Part shown: positions 1,207 to 1,818 of the stretch, piece after piece
Layout of the letters: the number at the start of each line of letters is the position of its first letter
Numbering within the stretch: position 1 is the first letter of the stretch
The notes under the pieces: generated by a model
Databases searched by the model: none
What the model was told of the DNA's origin: nothing
What the model saw: the letters and a program-made list of their open reading frames with translations, nothing else
Translations under genes and position numbers: made by a program
Assembly (NCBI RefSeq): GCF_003367905.1
Contig: NZ_CP029462.1
Location: forward strand, 1,860,001 to 1,924,000
DNA: 64,000 bases
Origin: Megasphaera stantonii
Lineage (GTDB): Bacteria; Bacillota; Negativicutes; Veillonellales; Megasphaeraceae
Direction of reading: 5' to 3'

Positions 1207-1256
1207 AAAAAGAACGGGACGTTCCTATGGTATCATAGAAATGTCCCGTTCTTTTT
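1207..1256 (+). terminator. Intrinsic terminator after serS
   Basis: A perfect 14-bp stem (1207-1220 with 1243-1256, core AAGAACGGGAC/GTCCCGTTCTT) encloses a 22-nt loop that holds a small CTATG/CATAG hairpin of its own. The 5' arm starts with A5 and the 3' arm ends with T5, so it could work in both directions. Confidence 0.85.
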
Positions 1257-1453: not shown

Positions 1454-1482
1454 TTGCGTACACCCCGTAAATATAGTATAGT
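1454..1482 (+). promoter_or_regulatory. Candidate sigma-70-type promoter for the autotransporter
   Basis: TTGCGT, 17-bp spacer, TATAGT. A start near 1489 would give a leader of about 330 nt containing the G10 tract. A second, weaker option is the -10-like TATTAT at 1625-1630, for which the G10 tract would lie in the -35/-10 spacer. Confidence 0.5.
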
Positions 1483-1605
1483 AAAACCATACTTAATTGC
1501 AACAGAATGGGGGTGAACGAATATGAGATCTGTCCGGTTCCGTAGGCAGGAATGCCAAACAGCTGCACATCATACCAATCGGTATAATTATGTGAAATCA
1601 TATAC

Positions 1606-1615
1606 GGGGGGGGGG
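1606..1615 (+). repeat. Homopolymeric G10 tract
   Basis: Ten consecutive G about 205 bp before the autotransporter start codon, in otherwise mixed sequence. Tracts of this length slip during replication. Its position between candidate promoter elements and a surface-protein gene is the typical setting of phase variation by transcription, but which promoter is used is not known. Confidence 0.85.
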
Positions 1616-1818
1616 TGCGGTTCATATTATAGATATAGCCTGAAAACGCAGGGAGTTTCTGCCCTGCTGCATATAGCATACCCATACAGGCAGAGCGCAA
1701 GTTCTGCCCTTTTGTCGTGCCATTTTCCCGAAGCATACCCCTTGTCATACGGAGGACAGCTGCGTATGTAAGTAGTTTTTTAGGTATGCAATAGCATGTA
1801 ACTAAGGAGGAAAATAGC

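Follow-up and report, generated by a model that had tools for sequence, protein, structure and literature searches.

The ten G residues which precede a 1478-aa adhesin gene of Megasphaera stantonii are likely to be the slippage site of a phase-variable, frame-dependent leader attenuator, in which tracts of 3n+1 residues alone would carry ribosomes over the attenuator. The window (the whole stretch of 64,000 nucleotides analyzed) is probably a real and functional phase-variation locus. A first-pass annotation had placed ten G about 205 bp before the adhesin gene, and the sequence confirms it: the run, flanked by TATAC on the 5' side and by T on the 3' side, has its start and end 213 and 204 bp, respectively, 5' of the adhesin ATG. 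The same annotation regarded the tract as a candidate phase-variation switch, located in the leader of one candidate promoter or in the spacer of another. The switch itself is strongly supported by the presence of 9–11 G tracts at nine type V adhesin genes, one of which (L036) is a promoter-spacer tract. The mode of action has to be replaced: the tract resides within a translated leader ORF, not in a promoter spacer or an untranslated leader, and length modulo 3, not promoter spacing, would be what matters. The elements of the locus are listed in Table 1.

Table 1. Elements of the adhesin unit and of its surroundings in the window
Feature	Position	Strand	Description	Basis
Upstream-gene terminator	1207-1256		23-nt inverted repeat, arms 1207-1229 / 1234-1256, 91% complementary; separates upstream gene from adhesin unit	
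Candidate promoter	1454-1482	+	-35 TTGCGT 1454-1459, 17-nt spacer, -10 TATAGT 1477-1482	Sequence read
Leader Shine-Dalgarno (SD)	1509-1516	+	GGGGGTGA; GGNGGTGA before start codon in 9/9 leaders	
Leader ORF	1523-1771	+	ATG 1523, 82 codons in 3n+1 (G10) phase	
G10 slippage tract (proposed switch)	1606-1615	+	Inside leader ORF	Sequence read
Hairpin GCAGGG/CCCTGC	1648-1667	+	Between tract and terminator	
Terminator-like hairpin	1689-1708, tail to 1716	+	GGCAGAGC-GCAA-GTTCTGCC, 8 pairs; tail CTTTTGTC	
Anti-SD arm	1715-1728	+	Predicted to pair with adhesin SD/start 1809-1822 when untranslated; within long-frame ORF	
Adhesin Shine-Dalgarno	1804-1810	+	AAGGAGG	Sequence read
Autotransporter adhesin, 1478 aa	1819-6255	+	PF03797 at residues 1224-1457, 2.6e-40, 139 bits	
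Small zinc-finger-like ORF, 142 aa	6262-6690	+	zf-MYND match 3e-5	

Runs of G or C in the window include 20 of 5 nt, two of 6 nt, none of 7–9 nt, and one of 10 nt. The first-order Markov expectation for G runs of at least 10 nt in the window is 0.095, from a model which overpredicts long G runs here. In the genome as a whole (2.65 Mb) runs of exactly 8 G are missing, and runs of 9–11 G are 11, the opposite of a geometric decay. As a geometric decay would favour the shortest class, the reverse trend observed indicates that this genome either retains long G tracts or produces them. Regions of 10–14 kb were read around each of the eleven tracts, and type V adhesin anchors, corresponding to eight PF03797 and nine PF03895 matches, were located genome-wide. 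Nine of the eleven tracts are found directly at the start of type V adhesin genes; the simple repeat is over-represented and placed at surface genes, as in SSR phase variation. The window adhesin has the C-terminal beta-barrel domain (PF03797) of type Va proteins.

The nine adhesin-linked tracts have been sorted into three types, promoter-spacer (L036), coding (L035), and leader (seven loci). Promoter-spacer homopolymers are known from Neisseria (porA/opc/fetA type), and L036 is of this form, the window tract is not. At L036:5700-5740 (G000:C1, ~1806.7 kb) the arrangement TTGACA-G11TATGAAG-TATATT, with a spacer of 18 nt, lies 5' of the gene of a 1210-aa autotransporter, and reads as a textbook promoter-spacer switch; 10 G would make the spacer 17 nt long. 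The G10 tract at L035:5688-5697 (G000:C1, ~1720.7 kb) resides where an autotransporter ORF of 1422 aa encodes the signal-peptide region, is in frame as assembled, and has the make-up of a standard coding-type switch. Of the two tracts not associated with adhesins, one (L034) falls within a 563-aa ORF. The other, a G11 tract at L038:5282-5292 (G000:C1, ~2083.3 kb), is located in the ORF of a sigma-54 activator, between the AAA+ and the Fis-type HTH domains, so that the regulator could lose its DNA-binding domain through slippage. Tracts occur also in other Megasphaera. G9–G12 runs are found just past the signal peptide of TonB-dependent-receptor-like genes (L041, L053 in G011, L054, L063 in G014), and are candidate coding-type switches by sequence. 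In the congener G010 two distinct outer-membrane genes (L045, L056) have a common upstream element, encoding MSDWIILCPNGVEK.., and a G9 tract; a similar stretch devoid of the tract (MSVWSIFRPNGVER) is found at L043, 5' of a TonB-receptor-like gene.

The leader design recurs at seven loci of the genome, the window, L030, L031, L032 (these three on the reverse strand), L033, L039 and L040, which have in common SD, start codon, TACG(9–11)GT motif, hairpin and adhesin. The leader ORF starts 65–83 nt before the tract, behind GGGGGTGA or GGAGGTGA, the context of the tract is invariably TACG(n)GT, and a hairpin with a T run is located 3' of the tract. In five leaders the hairpin is AGGCAGCATNNNNNTATGCTGTCTTTTTT, with a TTTTTT tail; in the window leader and in a copy found at 996 kb it is GGCAGAGC-GCAA-GTTCTGCC-CTTTTGTC. 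An element resembling GGGATNCGTGNGCCC is found between tract and terminator in most other leaders, and the window has GCAGGG/CCCTGC instead, possibly a pause hairpin which keeps ribosome and polymerase together. Rfam returned nothing relevant in the window leader and in several sister leaders, and no Pfam family matches the leader ORF. An antisense 202-aa ORF (1284-1892) is also present, its being open the sole evidence for it. ORFs of 113–152 aa, zinc-finger-like (weak zf-MYND matches), are found near almost every tract-controlled adhesin (window, L030, L032, L033, L036, L039, L040, L125), 5' of YadA-like genes and 3' of autotransporters. The YadA-like adhesin at L039:6417-11194 spans two ORFs of 641 and 954 aa which overlap, owing to either a genuine break of frame or a mistake in the assembly.

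Two additional leaders were found by a leader-pattern scan of the genome collection and by whole-genome scans of the class and of the order. The leader of Megasphaera cerevisiae DSM 20462 (L093) has the same design, with a G13 tract in the open phase and, by inspection, another hairpin at the equivalent place; the contig ends shortly past the leader. The second (L081/L125) was found in a MAG from a different family of the Veillonellales, and has a G9 tract in the closed phase and the hairpin AAGGCTGC..GCGGCCTTTTTT; it is followed by a small zinc-finger ORF and by a 1464-aa autotransporter-like ORF. Most other class-wide matches to the pattern, judged by the matched DNA, appear to be tracts within signal peptides or other coding sequence, and were set aside. 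Matches of the genome collection outside the Veillonellales were attributed to chance, as the sequence around the tract is devoid of the series SD, leader, tract and terminator before an adhesin gene; one match in a viral contig (L142) also lacks the design.

In the window leader the frame set by 10 G is open for a further 156 nt past the tract, through the hairpin. With 9 or 12 G a stop is found near position 1643, 28 nt past the tract, with 11 G near position 1632, 17 nt past the tract, and these short frames end 46–57 nt before the hairpin. The geometry is the same in all nine leaders: of the three possible frames past the tract, a single one is open through the downstream terminator hairpin, and the two short ones stop some 40 nt or more upstream of it. 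In the seven leaders of the genome the open phase is 3n+1 (120–231 nt past the tract), and the 3n and 3n+2 phases stop 5–49 nt past the tract. Tract-to-terminator segments were dinucleotide-shuffled, counting eight leaders as independent. The product of the shuffle probabilities is 1.6e-5 for each of the eight having one open frame and no more, 2e-8 adding the common phase; the values are indicative, as the leaders are treated as independent, yet five have a common hairpin sequence. Assembled tracts measure 9, 10, 11 or 13 G, and may be off by one, so that the assignment of three leaders to the predicted ON state and of six to the predicted OFF state is provisional. The open phase is featured by the window and L030 (G10) and by L093 (G13), the closed phase by L031, L032, L033 and L040 (G11), L039 (G9) and the MAG leader (G9).

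The -35 hexamer of the candidate window promoter matches the consensus at 3 of 6 positions, under the threshold of the promoter scan; elements of the form TTGNNN-17/18-TANNNT are found shortly before the SD in all nine leaders. The first-pass annotation had proposed TATTAT (1625-1630) as part of one of two candidate promoters, with the tract in the spacer; in such a placement TATTAT would be the -10 hexamer, and slippage would change promoter strength. The genome does contain a tract of this class, at the 1210-aa autotransporter gene (L036), where the G residues separate -35 and -10 hexamers. At the window tract no -35-like hexamer was found by the promoter scan 16–18 nt 5' of TATTAT, which is present but reads TATTGT in the near-identical paralogous leader, and is therefore not conserved; moreover, other leaders keep a promoter-like element 5' of the SD instead. 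A promoter spacer at this place is extremely improbable.

A DNA search of 60 relatives with the window leader retrieved the 996-kb copy only. The two are 95% identical, and the leader ORFs differ by 11 substitutions, of which 9 change an amino acid and none creates a stop, without insertions or deletions. Residues 1687-1771, spanning hairpin and anti-SD arm, are identical. Judged from this pair, the leader has retained its translation and its RNA elements but not its peptide sequence; the promoter and the hairpins of the window are backed by this one near-identical paralogue only. The similarity fits also the view that the tract has no regulatory role and is a relic of mutation that spread as leader DNA was duplicated, and the two leaders do represent one event. 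The other leaders are too diverged for DNA search, yet they retain tract, phase and geometry, and 9 of 11 tracts of the genome lie at adhesins, which makes a relic highly improbable.

According to RNA folding the window leader has a z-score of -3.35. The pairing probability of the hairpin is 1.00 in the untranslated RNA and falls to 0 with ribosomes over the long frame; that of the adhesin SD/start region falls from 0.86 to 0.34. The unit may hence be gated at both transcription and translation, as modeled. The U tract of the window terminator is weak (CUUUUGUC) compared to the TTTTTT of sister leaders; termination there may be incomplete, and a larger part may be played by SD masking or by Rho. 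The window adhesin has its own SD, 47 nt past the leader stop, of which a portion would be masked, together with the start codon, by the pairing of 1715-1728 with 1809-1822. In five leaders (L032, L033, L039, L040 and L125) the open frame terminates on the start codon of the gene that follows, with stop and start overlapping (TAATG, ATGA), or within the first 10 nt of that gene, and no SD is evident at these starts. The combination suggests termination-reinitiation coupling.

The leader frame could act by translational coupling, or by unmasking the start of the next gene, and nothing else, the hairpin being non-terminating. The stops found at or near the next start codon in five leaders, the pairing of the window adhesin SD/start when untranslated, and the weak U tract would all fit. 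Hairpins with a TTTTTT tail lie at matching places in five leaders and nowhere else in the genome; the AGGCAGCATNNNNNTATGCTGTCTTTTTT terminator motif, searched in 15 genomes of the genus, was found at these five leader sites and is absent from the 14 congeners. In addition, the M. cerevisiae and MAG leaders have different hairpins at this position. Coupling by itself is thus unlikely, and attenuation dependent on the leader frame is the preferred reading.

The attenuator model builds on the tract, the leader ORF and its SD, the frame geometry, the predicted hairpins, and their recurrence at nine leaders; it supposes that tract length changes by slippage in living cells, that the promoter is active, that transcription ends at the hairpin, and that expression follows the phase. 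Transcription would start about 30 nt 5' of the strong ribosome-binding site, and the leader ORF would be translated through the G tract. With 3n+1 residues (10 as assembled, or 13) the ribosome would cross both the terminator-like hairpin and the anti-SD arm; the arm would be kept off the adhesin SD, transcription would go on, and the adhesin would be translated (ON). With 3n or 3n+2 residues the ribosome would halt early and the hairpin would form; most transcripts would end there, and the adhesin SD would stay paired (OFF). The state of each adhesin would flip randomly between ON and OFF with the gain or loss of one G.

Leader translation decides which RNA hairpin forms also in trp-type attenuators and in erm-type translational attenuation. 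There the signal is the stalling of the ribosome by a metabolite or a drug, in the window it would be a heritable change of frame. The closest known system is the attenuation of pil1 and pil3 in Streptococcus gallolyticus, in which GCAGA repeats within a leader peptide, when their number changes out of frame, let ribosomes cover a terminator, a mechanism backed for pil1 by mutants of the terminator, the leader start and the stops (PMC3894217). As in pil1/pil3, the repeat resides in a leader ORF, a frameshift gives a longer leader with the stop in or past the terminator hairpin, and a surface adhesin structure is controlled (PMC3894217). Correspondingly, the window repeat is found within a leader ORF endowed with its own ribosome-binding site, a predicted terminator hairpin (with a weak U tract) separates leader and target gene, and in all nine leaders one frame ends in or past the hairpin and the others clearly before it. 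Short leaders stop ~28–39 nt before the hairpin in pil1/pil3 (PMC3894217), ~40 nt or more here. The streptococcal systems feature a GCAGA pentanucleotide, a Gram-positive host, pili, and two loci (PMC3894217); the leaders described here feature a G homopolymer, a diderm Negativicute, autotransporters and YadA-like adhesins, seven loci, and the stop/start overlap with the next gene. As the repeat unit is G instead of GCAGA, the window system would work like pil1 and is not a homologue of it; the logic is shared, and no sequence homology is expected.

G tracts of variable length are known to act also regardless of frame. In Moraxella catarrhalis a poly-G tract of 8–12 residues upstream of the ORF of the type V adhesin uspA1 is associated with high or low expression, according to the relevant passages of PMC7302503, which report a graded effect on transcription and mention no leader ORF plus terminator; a frame-dependent leader is proposed for the window. 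In Helicobacter pylori tlpB-hp0102 the G-repeat of the leader pairs with the RepG small RNA, in a range of ~9–12 G and independently of frame (PMC8295292); the variable tract is in the mRNA leader as in the window, but acts through sRNA pairing. That the window tract alters transcription or sRNA binding regardless of frame is supported by these precedents, uspA1 encoding a trimeric autotransporter (PMC7302503, same passages; PMC8295292). Such action predicts neither the single open frame through the terminator of each leader, nor the common phase, nor the stop/start overlap, and is very improbable.

No description of this design was found in the open-licence literature on phase variation in Megasphaera, Veillonella and Negativicutes, and phase-variable attenuation was restricted, in the literature found, to a pair of pilus operons in a single streptococcus. 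It is fairly likely that at least seven adhesin units of M. stantonii are under independent, stochastic, homopolymer-based and ribosome-coupled attenuators sharing the ON phase (3n+1), which exist alongside promoter- and coding-type tracts and give a combinatorial surface coat, and that the design arose independently of streptococcal pil1. As a G-tract version is present at seven loci in a diderm Negativicute, and also in two relatives, attenuation of this kind is apparently a more widely used solution, which ordinary scans for phase-variable genes would overlook, the tract being hidden in an unannotated leader ORF. With length modulo 3 as a simple rule, the adhesins in the ON state could be predicted from reads.
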